Shown piece by piece: positions 12,387-22,468 of a DNA stretch of 26,680 nt. Both the position numbers and the translations under genes were made by a program. The stretch is from Amphritea sp. (GTDB taxonomy: Bacteria; Pseudomonadota; Gammaproteobacteria; Pseudomonadales; Nitrincolaceae), in NCBI GenBank assembly GCA_024679635.1, contig JAIBDA010000004.1, forward strand, positions 1 to 26,680, read 5' to 3'. The notes beneath the pieces were generated by a model, which saw nothing but the letters and a program-made list of their open reading frames with translations, was not told the origin of the DNA and made no database searches. The first letter of the stretch is position 1. Every line of letters begins with the position of its first letter.

Positions 12387-12408
12387 CTGTAACATTTCTG
12401 TCATCAAC
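12387..12408 (+). promoter_or_regulatory. Second Pho box, upstream of pstC
   Basis: CTGTAACATTT (12387-12397) and CTGTCATCAAC (12398-12408) are two adjacent 11-bp PhoB units. TATCTT at 12415-12420 stands 6 bases after the box, exactly as upstream of pstS. It gives pstCAB-phoU an independent phosphate-regulated promoter downstream of the pstS terminator. Confidence 0.82.
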
Positions 12409-17401: not shown

Positions 17402-18136
17402 GTGAGTTACGAACAGGACCGTCATAGCAACCACATCTCCCAGAGCTTCAATGAAGAACTGGAGCAGATCCGCACAGAACTTCTGACTATGGGAGGCTTT
17501 GTTGAGCGTCAGTTAAGCGACGCCGTTGAAGCCCTGGTAGAGGGCGACACCGAGCAGGCTGAACAAGCCCGCAAAAGCGATCAGGCGATCAACGACATGG
17601 AGATGATGATTGATGAGCAGTGCACACTGATCATCGCCCGTCGTCAGCCCGCCGCTGCAGACCTGCGTCTGATTATCTCTGTCAGCAAGGCCGTCAGTGA
17701 CCTTGAACGGATTGGCGACGAAACCAGCCGGATCTGCCGCTACGCTATTGAACTGGCAGATGAAGGGAAAAATGTCCGGGGTTATCAGGAAGTTCGCCAT
17801 ATCGGCAACCTCGTACGCGATATGCTGAAGAATTGCCTCACGGCCTTTGCCCGCAGCGATGCGGAAATGGCCTATAAAGTGGCAAAACAAGATAAAGAGG
17901 TCGATTCAGAATACCGTACAGCGATGCGTTCTCTGATGACCTACATGATGGAAGATCCACGTTATATCTCCAGCATCATGAATGTTATCTGGGTACTGCG
18001 AAGCCTGGAGCGTATCGGTGATCATGCCCGTAACATGGCTGAACATCTGATCTATCTGGTCAGTGGTACCGATGTACGACACAGTAGCCTGAAAGAGATC
18101 AAGCGCACGGTCCGCCAGGTAGAAGAAAAGCAGTAA
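17402..18136 (+). CDS. phoU: Phosphate signalling regulator PhoU
   Basis: Cytoplasmic helical protein that couples PstB state to PhoR and keeps the Pho regulon off when phosphate is plentiful. Seen: 244 residues, normal length, with two PhoU repeats. The first has ERQLSDAVEALVEGD, then an E/D-x-x-x-D-x-x pattern at MEMMIDEQCTLIIARRQPAAADLRLI and VSDLERIGDETSRI. The second has RTAMRSLMTYMMEDPR and VLRSLERIGDHARNMAEHLIYLVSG. The start is GTG at 17402 with AGGGGAG 8 bases upstream; no ATG fits. It is the last gene of the pst operon and is followed by a terminator at 18174-18201. Confidence 0.95.
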   Translation: MSYEQDRHSNHISQSFNEELEQIRTELLTMGGFVERQLSDAVEALVEGDTEQAEQARKSDQAINDMEMMIDEQCTLIIARRQPAAADLRLIISVSKAVSDLERIGDETSRICRYAIELADEGKNVRGYQEVRHIGNLVRDMLKNCLTAFARSDAEMAYKVAKQDKEVDSEYRTAMRSLMTYMMEDPRYISSIMNVIWVLRSLERIGDHARNMAEHLIYLVSGTDVRHSSLKEIKRTVRQVEEKQ

Positions 18137-18173
18137 CCGCTTCATTACCCTTAATAATCCAGCTTCAACTATC

Positions 18174-18201
18174 AAAAAAGGCAGCCATCGGTTGCCTTTT
18201 T
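18174..18201 (+). terminator. Intrinsic terminator of the pst-phoU operon
   Basis: GGCAGCC (18180-18186), loop ATC, GGTTGCC (18190-18196) with one G.U pair on the plus strand, then TTTTT, preceded by an A-run. On the minus strand the G.U pair becomes a mismatch, so it mainly serves phoU, although it also follows the minus-strand gene that ends at 18222. Confidence 0.85.
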
Positions 18202-18221
18202 GTTATCAGCAGCGCAGAAAA

Positions 18222-18503
18222 TTATTCAGTAGATCTGATCTGCAAGCTGATCTGCCCACTACTGGTTGGCTGGGCGGAGAGTAAAACTCCCCCGGCCTGA
18301 TATCGCCCGGTGTTTTTCAATTCTGAAATAACCTCTTGAGGAATATTTCCACCACTCCAGCCGGGTACCAGCTGTTTCATAAACATAAGAAAGGCACCAT
18401 CGATCTCCCAAAGGTCCCCTTTCATATCGCATACCGCTTCACCCGTTTTACCGCCCCGACGCCCCAGCTTTCCCTGAGGCCCTCTCTTTAGCTCGACTGA
18501 CAC
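18222..18503 (-). CDS. Unrecognised small protein
   Basis: Not recognised. Seen: an open frame on the minus strand ending at 18222. The best start is GTG at 18503 (AGGGTGG about 5 bases upstream), giving 93 residues; the frame continues upstream to a TTG at 18575 without ATG. The N-terminus is basic (VELKRGPQGKLGRRGGKTGE), then a mixed segment GDLWEIDGAFLMFMKQLVPG, a short helix PQEVISELKNTG, and a C-terminus rich in S, Q and G (LLSAQPTSSGQISLQI). It has no signal peptide and no clear membrane span. It is convergent with phoU. Base composition is like its neighbours. It could be a real species-specific gene or a chance frame. Confidence 0.45.
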   Translation of the reverse strand: MSVELKRGPQGKLGRRGGKTGEAVCDMKGDLWEIDGAFLMFMKQLVPGWSGGNIPQEVISELKNTGRYQAGGVLLSAQPTSSGQISLQIRSTE

Positions 18504-18762
18504 ACAACCACCCTTAATTCTGTGTAAATAGTATTTGGCGTACACCACAGCTCGCGCAACATAGAACGGTATCAACTTTTATGTGTTGTTTTTCATACCG
18601 AACAGACGAGTTTATCTCAATTAAAACAACTCTTGTACTACGGGATCATTGATATACAACTAATACCTCGCCGATTATGACTCAAGAATACCCAGACCCG
18701 CCGATAGCTCTCTTGAGAACTGGCAACTATTACAATTAACAAACAAATTTCAAGGCAAGCGG
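18504..18762. other. Intergenic region with several dyads before the cyclase gene
   Basis: This A/T-rich spacer holds CGGTAT...ATACCG with an inner CAAC...GTTG, all within about 18568-18600. It also holds a 7-bp inverted repeat CTCAAGA (18681-18687) / TCTTGAG (18711-18717) and two copies of CGCCGAT (18669-18675 and 18699-18705). No convincing promoter or Pho box was found. It presumably carries the promoter of the cyclase gene and perhaps of the minus-strand gene. Confidence 0.35.
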
Positions 18763-20286
18763 ATGGCTGATTATATTGTTTATGGGAATCTTAACTGTCC
18801 TTTCAGTTATGCATTGTATGAGTTGCTCTACAGCCAAAACTTGCTGCACAAAGTTGAATGGAGAATCGTTGAGCATACATCTGATTCTGGCTCATATTTA
18901 CGCAGTGCCGAAAGTATGTCGGAACTTGCCAGCGATATTTTCAATATTCGCAACAGGGCTCCCGGCATTACAATCTCTCTGCCGTTAAGCCTTAGTGATA
19001 GTCTGTTTCCCTCGTTGTGTGCCATCGCAGCCCAACGCTCAGCCCCTGAACAATCAAGCCAATTTCTCAGCAATCTCTACCGAGCCCTCTGGATAAAAGG
19101 TAAAGACATCGGTAGCTCCTCGGTCATTTTTCACGCACTCGAAGAGGCAGGAATAGACACTGAACTAGAGACTGACGAACTCTGTGAAGAGATTCTTCTG
19201 CGCTGGCAAAAGGAGTGGGAACGTGGCAACTTTGGCCTCCGGACCCCTGTTATAATTGCTGATGACGGACGCCGGATGGTCGGTCTGGTAAACCAACAGA
19301 CAGTGCTCGAGTTTTTCCAAGGGGCAGAGGCGGTGCCAACTGCAGCGACGAGTAGTTCCCGTTATCAGGAAAGAATGACCATTGCCCTCTTTGGTGATGA
19401 TCAAATATCAAACCTTTGGCCGCTGCTCTCTTCGCTGCGTGACGATAGTAATATTCTTCTGCCTCAGTCATTAGCGTCACTGCAGGAGATGCTTCTTTCA
19501 GCAGAGCGTTGTCCGGACCTTGTGCTACTCCATAATACGGGCCAACATGCCAACCTGATTGAACTTTGTCGGAGTATGGCCCATTTAACCCGCGAAAAGC
19601 AGGTTCCCCTGGCGGTTATCGGAACCTCCATTAGTGATGCTGATGAAGTGAGCCTTTATGACTTAGGCGTAGCAGATTATCTGTTACAACAACGCAACGC
19701 GCAGATTATTCAGGCACGTATCAATATTTTGCTACAGTTGAAACGGGCACACGACCTACTTGCCAGAGCAGCCAGCATCGACACTCTGACCCAGGTTTAT
19801 AACCGCAGAGAATTTGAACGCTGCTTCGAAACCGAGTGGCGTCGGGGCCAGAGGTCACGACAACCGATCTCCGTTATTCTGATCGATATTGACCACTTCA
19901 AAGCCTTTAACGATAATCTGGGCCACCTGAACGGTGATAACTGTTTACGCCAAATTGCCACGACCATCCGTGATTCGGTTCGTCGGGCTCAGGATATGGT
20001 TTGCCGCTTTGGCGGTGAAGAGTTTATCATTCTGCTGCCGGAAACCGATCAGGCAGGAGCAGAGTTATTAGCTGAGCATATCCGCCAAAGGATTGTTGAA
20101 CTGGATATTCGTCATAGCCCTAATTTTAAAGATGAGCCGGTCACTGTCAGCTTAGGTATTGCAACCGCCGTTCCCGCTCACAAAGGTGAATCTCCAAGAA
20201 AAATCATCGATCAGGCCGACAACGCCCTCTATAAAGCTAAAAAACAAGGCCGGAACCGAGTAGAGACCTATGTCGGCGAGAGCTGA
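18763..20286 (+). CDS. Diguanylate cyclase with N-terminal DsbA/HCCA-like thioredoxin-fold domain and degenerate receiver
   Basis: Predicted to make cyclic di-GMP from GTP in the cytoplasm. Seen: 507 residues, no signal peptide or membrane span. Residues 1 to about 190 resemble the DsbA/FrnE/2-hydroxychromene-carboxylate-isomerase thioredoxin fold: the first strand leads into NCPFSYALYELL (CPFS at 12-15, monothiol), a helical insert follows, and a late cis-Pro-type loop RTPVIIADDG precedes a terminal helix. About 204-330 is receiver-like, but the phospho-acceptor Asp is His257 (LVLLHNTG) and the conserved Lys is Gln (ADYLLQQ). The GGDEF domain (about 340-505) has DTLTQVYNRREF, GGEEF at 417-421 and an inhibitory site RAQD at 408-411, five residues before it. 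So the cyclase should be active and feedback-inhibited, with sensing not by phosphorylation. The weak ribosome site is AAGG. Confidence 0.85.
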   Translation: MADYIVYGNLNCPFSYALYELLYSQNLLHKVEWRIVEHTSDSGSYLRSAESMSELASDIFNIRNRAPGITISLPLSLSDSLFPSLCAIAAQRSAPEQSSQFLSNLYRALWIKGKDIGSSSVIFHALEEAGIDTELETDELCEEILLRWQKEWERGNFGLRTPVIIADDGRRMVGLVNQQTVLEFFQGAEAVPTAATSSSRYQERMTIALFGDDQISNLWPLLSSLRDDSNILLPQSLASLQEMLLSAERCPDLVLLHNTGQHANLIELCRSMAHLTREKQVPLAVIGTSISDADEVSLYDLGVADYLLQQRNAQIIQARINILLQLKRAHDLLARAASIDTLTQVYNRREFERCFETEWRRGQRSRQPISVILIDIDHFKAFNDNLGHLNGDNCLRQIATTIRDSVRRAQDMVCRFGGEEFIILLPETDQAGAELLAEHIRQRIVELDIRHSPNFKDEPVTVSLGIATAVPAHKGESPRKIIDQADNALYKAKKQGRNRVETYVGES

Positions 20287-20294
20287 TTCTAACC

Positions 20295-20870
20295 TCAGCA
20301 ATAATCGGCAAAGGGAGGAAAACGTTCGATTAATCCTTCCCGTCCAAGCTCCCGTAGTAGCTTAATGTTTCGCTCTGGGATCTGCTCCGGATTTGAATAA
20401 TGGGTTAGTGCCCGCTCCATTTCAGCTTCTCGAATGAGATGAAAGGCAGGCCAGGGAGAACGATTACTCCAATGGCTCAGATCATCTTTCGCAACTCCTT
20501 GAAACAGATAACCGGGATGGAAGCTGGCTAACTGTAGTACTCCTTCCAATCCAGCCTGCTCCAATAGCTCTTCAAACAGGCGCAGATGGTCGAGGTAATC
20601 ATAAAAGTCTTCCAGACCGGTTGGTACAACAAACAGGGTGGTGGAGATCTCTTTTTCACCAGCCGCCAGAAGTAATTCGACTTCGGCCATAAAGGCGGCC
20701 ACCAGCGGCTCACTCCCTTGAGCCTCAGTCACCGCATAACGCAACGAGCCCTCTCTAACCACAGGCGCGGCAAACGGACAGAGATTCAAACCCACGACCA
20801 TTGTTTCCACCCATTGCCGGGTAAGCTGTTCAATCTGCTCAGTTGTATAGCACTGCTGTGTTTTAGACAT
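20295..20870 (-). CDS. DUF1415 family protein
   Basis: Function unknown. Seen: 191 residues with the family hallmarks: the N-terminal helix W-V-E-T-x-V-V-G-L-NLCPFA, an internal L-x-x-G-x-x-EISTTLFVVP, a strand LQLASFHPGYLFQG, the SPWPAFHLIREAEMERAL block, and the end IPERNIKLLRELG. Known: DUF1415 proteins are widespread in proteobacteria as single-copy cytoplasmic proteins; the conserved Cys (NLCPF) and His (FHPGY, FHLIRE) could bind a metal or be catalytic, but no activity is established. The start ATG at 20870 has AAAGG just upstream. It is convergent with the cyclase gene (8 bases between stops) and divergent from ubiC. Confidence 0.85.
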   Translation of the reverse strand: MSKTQQCYTTEQIEQLTRQWVETMVVGLNLCPFAAPVVREGSLRYAVTEAQGSEPLVAAFMAEVELLLAAGEKEISTTLFVVPTGLEDFYDYLDHLRLFEELLEQAGLEGVLQLASFHPGYLFQGVAKDDLSHWSNRSPWPAFHLIREAEMERALTHYSNPEQIPERNIKLLRELGREGLIERFPPFADYC

Positions 20871-22446: not shown

Positions 22447-22468
22447 TTGTCATATTTCTGTAACAGTT
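22447..22468 (+). promoter_or_regulatory. Pho box upstream of phoB
   Basis: TTGTCATATTT (22447-22457) and CTGTAACAGTT (22458-22468) are two adjacent 11-bp PhoB units. TCTAAT (22475-22480) follows 6 bases later as the -10. It implies autoregulation of phoBR. Confidence 0.85.

Follow-up and report, generated by a model that had tools for sequence, protein, structure and literature searches.

A FrnE-like thiol domain joined to a degenerate receiver and a diguanylate cyclase in Amphritea: a possible thiol-based input to cyclic di-GMP signalling

A three-domain gene downstream of phoU

The stretch of DNA analysed here, called the window, comprises the first 26,680 nucleotides (nt) of contig JAIBDA010000004.1 from Amphritea sp. 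(assembly GCA_024679635.1). At 18763..20286 it holds a gene for a protein of 507 amino acids (aa) in which a thioredoxin-type thiol domain is followed by a receiver-like domain and a GGDEF diguanylate cyclase domain. The gene lies 3' of pstA-pstB-phoU, and after it come a convergent DUF1415 gene and then ubiC-ubiA-phoB-phoR. The three-domain gene is confirmed as a real feature of this DNA, and the protein that it encodes is cytoplasmic. Its nearest genome loci are two contigs of Amphritea metagenome-assembled genomes (L001 and L008), with 96% protein identity. The parts of the gene are as follows; AlphaFold confidence is given as the predicted local distance difference test (pLDDT), and PDB is the Protein Data Bank.

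18763..20286, + strand: DSBA-REC-GGDEF gene (507-aa protein), ATG start; probable FrnE-like DSBA domain, degenerate receiver (REC) and GGDEF diguanylate cyclase
18763..19329, + strand: probable FrnE-like thioredoxin-fold input domain, residues 1-189 (AlphaFold pLDDT 90.1; PDB matches; hhalign to a FrnE-like profile)
18796..18807, + strand: active-site motif C12-P-F-S15, CPFC in most relatives (sequence and alignments)
19243..19248, + strand: T161-P162, cis-Pro-type loop of the thioredoxin fold, the Pro invariant in aligned rows (alignment)
19330..19371, + strand: flexible linker, residues 190-203, pLDDT <50 at 192-202 (model and alignment)
19372..19737, + strand: receiver-like domain, residues 204-325, without the usual phospho-acceptor (alignment, structure comparison)
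19531-19533 and 19687-19689, + strand: codons of His257 and Gln309 within the receiver-like domain (alignment)
19771..20259, + strand: GGDEF domain, residues 337-499 (Pfam 175.1 bits; structure comparison)
19984..19995, + strand: RAQD 408-411, RxxD inhibitory (I-site) motif; RxxD in 82/84 fused proteins
20011..20025, + strand: GGEEF 417-421, active-site motif; GGEEF in 79/84 fused proteins

An initial annotation of this DNA had proposed a thioredoxin fold of the DsbA/FrnE/HCCA type with a single active-site Cys (CPFS) and a TP loop, a receiver lacking its Asp and Lys, and intact cyclase motifs. All of these were recovered, and that interpretation as a whole stands in part. In the receiver-like domain His257 occupies the Asp position and Gln309 the Lys position, as seen by alignment to relatives such as P0018 that keep both residues. 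Pfam Response_reg gives no match for the 507-aa protein, which has neither the phospho-acceptor Asp nor the conserved Lys of a phosphorylatable response regulator. Among 84 aligned fused proteins (window protein included, with a few near-identical pairs) the Asp is kept in 23 and absent in 61, so that receiver phosphorylation is not the general input of the family. The cyclase has the GG[DE]EF site, the GGDEF fold and the RxxD I-site expected of a diguanylate cyclase, with a Pfam GGDEF match at E 1.2e-51, and residues 202-506 of the full-length model align with the REC-GGDEF structures of WspR (3bre) and DgcR (6zxb).

The thiol domain, its relatives and its partners

For residues 1-193 AlphaFold gives a model with pLDDT 90.1 and a predicted template modelling score (pTM) of 0.88. 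By comparison with solved structures this is a DsbA-type thioredoxin fold, with a helical insert, the Cys site at the start of helix 1 and a cis-Pro loop. Comparison of folds was used because searches of solved structures by sequence or profile gave nothing or weak matches: a single-sequence search with residues 1-189 found no match, and a nine-row profile found weak, mostly partial ones (best E 0.08). The Pfam DSBA score (PF01323) of the 507-aa protein is 22.0 bits, under the gathering cut-off of 25.6 bits. This cut-off is passed by 15 of 19 other scanned members, with L130, L150, L123 and P0158 falling short, and by all four fused relatives scanned, two of which (P0018 and L129) also exceed the Response_reg cut-off. 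Nine residues (N11, C12, P13, H38, A108, W110, W152, P162 and G174) do not vary across the 22 aligned rows of the domain, whose named sources belong to several phyla, which argues that the domain is not there by chance.

When the 22-row profile was compared by hhalign with profiles of related families, the FrnE-like profile scored highest (probability 98.5, E 3.6e-15, 187 columns), followed by the HCCA-like profile (95.9, 5.9e-9, 183 columns) and a CSWC-type profile (90.9, 1.1e-6, 135 columns). This is moderate evidence that FrnE-like dithiol oxidoreductases, rather than HCCA-like proteins, are the nearer relatives of the N-terminal domain, because the comparison profiles, which were made in this analysis, are small (six, three and three rows, respectively) and one search supplied both the FrnE-like set and part of the rows in the domain profile.

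Relatives were collected in several ways. A search with residues 1-335 gave 24 rows, of which three were set aside as REC-GGDEF-type proteins that lack the thiol domain. All three domains are present in the remaining 21, a number that counts the window protein itself, and two of these carry an extra N-terminal Ser/Thr kinase. Starting from residues 1-210 of P0018, another search returned 50 rows, of which 49 were new. A domain-only profile search, which scored only the 7998 candidates sharing most words, gave 100 rows. The signature D[LF]NCPFC[YF]A or a close form is present in 94 of these, and the six at the bottom of the list, with E 1e-6 to 9e-6, are FrnE-like proteins of the ordinary kind. 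Among the named sources are Myxococcota, Nitrospirota, Binatia, Bdellovibrionota and Temperatibacter.

The genome surveys, whose counts include the centre genomes, found the domain in 45 of 116 genomes of the window's family and in 8 of 369 of its class (both at E 1e-10); of the eight in the class, three are weak partial matches near 1e-11 and one (G270) is split over two frames. It is found in one of six genomes of the family of G086, in two of eight of a further order, where one match is close to the 1e-15 limit, and in none of six genomes of mixed origin. In another phylum 7 of 282 genomes have it; this phylum is probably Myxococcota, because locus L144 encodes P0136, named Sandaracinaceae. 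Surveys of two orders, overlapping this set, gave 5 of 29 and 11 of 183. The domain is rare outside its own clades, since it occurs in 0 of 297 genomes in the phylum around G870 and in one of 398 (E 1e-15) in the phylum around G001, this one being G001 itself. Divergent copies occur at L119-L127, as second copies in L119-L123 and L127 and as sole copies in L124-L126; all nine are CPFC, and the linker Cys described below is present in 7/7 aligned.

The domain is also joined to other signalling proteins. As an example, P0019 and P0020 combine a Ser/Thr kinase with DSBA, receiver-like and GGDEF-like parts, the cyclase motifs being partly degenerate. Similar genes come from two genomes of the probable Myxococcota phylum: L146 (6454-8931) has kinase and DSBA by Pfam and a GGDEF part without read-through, with undetermined letters in the record; L147 (5798-8653) has kinase, DSBA and GGDEF-like parts recognised by eye only; and L148 (2-1672) has DSBA and GGDEF, its start lost at the contig edge. 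In P0157 and P0158 a HATPase precedes the thiol domain, and in P0083 the thiol domain precedes PAS. Stand-alone copies overlap the nearest histidine-kinase start codon by 4 nt in 3 of 13 contexts (L130, L149 and L150); these neighbours were confirmed as kinases, and other start codons exist further inside the kinase frames. In L130 (3768-7152) a stand-alone CPFC domain is followed by a PAS-HisKA-HATPase-REC kinase with this overlap and then by a REC-HD-GYP gene with an HHE...GYP stretch, likely a phosphodiesterase of cyclic di-GMP (c-di-GMP). In L151 a Ser/Thr-kinase-receiver gene lies ~0.4 kb downstream of the stand-alone copy, and in L171 a PrkA gene (Pfam) lies next to it. The other eight contexts (L144, L168, L169, L170 and L172-L175, of which L172-L174 are close kin) gave no recognised kinase partner, only part of these loci having been Pfam-scanned. 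The idea that stand-alone relatives are always paired with a kinase was therefore rejected, given three histidine-kinase overlaps, one kinase-receiver gene, one PrkA gene and eight contexts with none recognised. There is good evidence from gene order for a working relation of the domain with kinases that is not universal, the three overlaps coming from two distant lineages.

Cysteines and the proposed input to the cyclase

Cys12 is present in 84/84 aligned fused proteins (nine genome-locus rows had been found by a pattern containing Cys12, the other rows had not), and cis-Pro162 in all 28 representatives left by clustering at 60% identity. Position 15 is Cys in 61 of the 84 and Ser in 23, and 98 of the 100 rows of the domain-only search are CPFC. 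On a quick maximum-likelihood tree this position changed twice, CPxS arising once before Amphritea, Aliamphritea and Neptunomonas diverged from one another and once in P0021. The initial annotation had described a monothiol CPFS site; judged by the alignments and the tree, CPFS does not define the family and is a derived minority state, a loss from a mainly CPFC family that often has a further Cys in the linker or tail. This third Cys lies in the disordered linker that leads into the receiver, at the column of Ser199. Among the CPxC proteins 54 of 61 have it, among the CPxS proteins 3 of 23 (after clustering at 60% identity, 23/24 and 1/4 representatives). Elsewhere in columns 190-203, conservation of this kind never exceeds 15 of the 24 CPxC representatives. 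In the domain-only search a C-terminal tail Cys occurs in 65 of 82 rows that are long enough, a few of them fused or partial; this is the script's 66 minus P0133, whose Cys lies outside the tail, with 12 rows too short. It also occurs in all 13 stand-alone genes read with their context, some of them close kin. By these counts members of the wider family usually have CPFC together with one tail or linker Cys. Of the FrnE features, the 507-aa protein lacks the CPxC dithiol site, which reads CPFS, and the C-terminal CX4C pair, its linker being without Cys. No association between receiver Asp and linker Cys was seen on the tree. Cysteines at residues 141, 250 and 354 are exclusive to CPxS proteins of the 84-row alignment (20, 18 and 8 of 23, against 0/61).

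The reading that we tentatively prefer, at close to an even chance, is that the 507-aa protein is a REC-GGDEF cyclase whose receiver is without its phospho-Asp and whose input would come from the N-terminal FrnE-like thiol domain instead of from receiver phosphorylation, with Cys12 as a monothiol. The domain itself is most likely a thiol-based input module, present in the window protein as a monothiol variant, and it would report the thiol-disulfide state. In CPFC members, disulfide exchange between the active site and the linker or tail Cys may rearrange the linker and hence the cyclase dimer. The C-terminal cysteines of FrnE set a precedent for such an exchange: the cited passages of PMC8945050 propose that they regenerate the active site, and describe a C-terminal CX4C pair in many, not all, FrnE proteins. 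This relay cannot operate in the window lineage, which has lost both the second Cys of the active site and that of the linker; here Cys12 would most likely join a small thiol or a partner protein in a mixed disulfide that can be reversed. We infer the redox chemistry, its effect on cyclase output and the direction of the response from sequence. More broadly, it is possible, at somewhat short of an even chance, that the D[LF]NCPFC[YF]A domain is an undescribed input module of several phyla, a FrnE-derived oxidoreductase turned sensor that would pass on the thiol-disulfide state through a tail or linker Cys to diguanylate cyclases, Ser/Thr and histidine kinases and HD-GYP regulators, with a one-cysteine form in Amphritea.

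Several observations weigh against a thiol input to the cyclase. The full-length model has a pTM of 0.45, so that the arrangement of the domains is not predicted. The 507-aa protein keeps Cys12 alone of the three cysteines (12, 15 and linker), the other two being lost. In the window family's own loci the linker Cys is found in 7 of 13 CPFC, 7 of 9 CPYS and 0 of 5 CPFS copies, a count that covers 27 of the 29 loci L090-L118, two of which did not fit the pattern. By this count the linker Cys is not strictly kept in the window lineage and is lost often, independently of Cys15. No coupling of the two losses is claimed, because the two part freely in these loci, and the tree has only two independent pairs. 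Finally, beside 9 of the 13 stand-alone copies no histidine-kinase or kinase-receiver gene was recognised, the neighbours there including PrkA (Pfam) and, by eye only, glucan phosphorylase and transporters of the major facilitator superfamily.

It is unlikely that the domain is a ligand sensor of the type of kappa-class glutathione S-transferase or HCCA isomerase, in which glutathione, its conjugate or another small molecule would set cyclase output without redox chemistry. In these enzymes a G-x-D segment near the C-terminal end of the fold binds glutathione. It is present in 3/3 HCCA-like proteins (G182 and D184 of A9), but the aligned stretch of the 507-aa protein reads G174-L-V. The higher score of the FrnE-like profile speaks against such a sensor as well, as do the CPFC site of most relatives and the fact that Cys12 is replaced by Ser in none of the 84 aligned proteins. 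A glutathione or HCCA-type ligand was rejected as first choice on the profile rank and the missing segment, and the aromatic thioether-type ligand that the initial annotation had considered loses support for the same two reasons.

The domain does share its fold with the YjbH/SpxH adaptors, and it could be a thioredoxin fold turned into a docking domain for a partner, catalysis being irrelevant in the window lineage. This too is improbable: plain docking would not need Cys12, which is kept while the other cysteines are lost, and no partner gene was identified beside the window gene. That the domain is a structural vestige, the cyclase being set by product inhibition and expression alone, would fit the degenerate receiver, the loss of Cys15 and the linker Cys and the flexible domain arrangement in the model, but is quite improbable given the nine residues invariant across phyla and a gene that keeps its place after phoU in 36 measured loci.

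Known systems and gene neighbourhood

The closest known protein is FrnE of Deinococcus radiodurans (PDB 5co3/5cnw/5xwh), a cytoplasmic dithiol oxidoreductase of the DsbA family. FrnE is a stand-alone enzyme, whereas the family described here usually has one tail or linker Cys and signalling partners, and the window protein has neither partner Cys. Cyclases of the WspR/DgcR/PleD type share the REC-GGDEF layout, GGEEF and RxxD with the 507-aa protein, which differs in His257 for the phospho-Asp and in the extra N-terminal thiol domain. Neither the CZB domain of Escherichia coli DgcZ nor the CSS domain of PdeC is known to have a thioredoxin fold. These two proteins likewise have a cysteine-based redox input to c-di-GMP turnover, but in the cited passages CZB binds zinc and CSS is a membrane domain of the periplasm (PMC8262984, PMC8846402). 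In Leptospirillum, the gene for the cytoplasmic thiol-disulfide oxidoreductase TFP8 adjoins a diguanylate cyclase gene, and a link between redox and c-di-GMP was suggested; there, however, the proteins are separate and the cyclase has a transmembrane helix (PMC7084401). A 2005 survey likewise lists a Mycobacterium protein that joins a Ser/Thr kinase to a DSBA domain, but this domain is said to be extracellular and GGDEF goes unmentioned in the cited part; for a protein of kinase plus GGDEF the same part lists tetratricopeptide repeats and no DSBA (PMC1262709).

A 2022 review of c-di-GMP inputs names, in the cited parts, heme, flavin, hemerythrin and periplasmic disulfide domains as the ones that respond to redox state, and its main text gives no match for 'thioredoxin' (PMC8846402); DgcZ adds a zinc-binding Cys domain to these (PMC8262984, cited part). 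The initial annotation had supposed the domain order to be undescribed, and no description of a DSBA-REC-GGDEF architecture was found in the open-access literature, among the matches listed, most subscription papers and bioRxiv being outside this coverage. That c-di-GMP signalling can take a redox or thiol input is already known; a cytoplasmic FrnE-like input domain appears to be undescribed. If our reading is true, such a domain at the head of a cyclase, and elsewhere fused or translationally coupled to kinases, would link the cytosolic thiol pool directly with second-messenger and kinase signalling. The natural series CPFC plus linker Cys, CPYS plus linker Cys, CPFC alone and CPFS alone would make the contribution of each Cys separable in existing proteins.

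Three features flank the cyclase gene.

17402..18136, + strand: phoU, kept upstream neighbour (Pfam and loci compared)
18174..18201, + strand: terminator-like GC hairpin with A/T arms between phoU and the cyclase gene (alignment and script)
20295..20870, - strand: DUF1415 gene, kept convergent neighbour (Pfam and loci compared)

In all 36 measurable loci, which include repeats of the same genomes, phoU lies immediately upstream of the cyclase gene. The short stretches of L100, L109 and L110 (of L090-L118) have no phoU, nor have the stretches examined around the divergent copies L119-L127. Twelve loci of the Amphritea/Aliamphritea type have a gap of 590-661 nt after phoU; in 23 others it measures 112-187 nt, and in L117 469 nt. 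The hairpin was found by script in the window and in five Amphritea/Aliamphritea-type loci checked, and alignment gives similar ones in L005 and L007; a consensus terminator scan did not list the hairpin at 18174-18201. Because it separates phoU from the cyclase gene, the latter may well have its own promoter, as a candidate. The initial annotation had placed the cyclase next to the phosphate regulon, and the position holds; the regulatory link is weaker, given the hairpin and the lack of a Pho-box-like match before the gene in a scan of the window. The window has five such matches against a chance expectation of 2.1, at least as many being found in 6 of 100 shuffles, and Pho regulation of the cyclase gene was rejected on these two grounds. 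Matches lie at 12387-12404 (+ strand, two mismatches) before pstC and at 22447-22464 (+ strand, three mismatches) before phoB, the count in the window being little above chance. Rfam gave no match in 17900-20700.

At L009:8001-9499, a record of Aliamphritea spongicola, the frame of the cyclase gene stops early, 86 codons past the start, as a broken gene or a sequencing error. Between phoU and the cyclase gene of the window, as in other loci of the Amphritea/Aliamphritea type, there is a small open reading frame (18222-18575, - strand) convergent with phoU; it has no Pfam or NCBIfam match and is kept in L001-L004 and L132.
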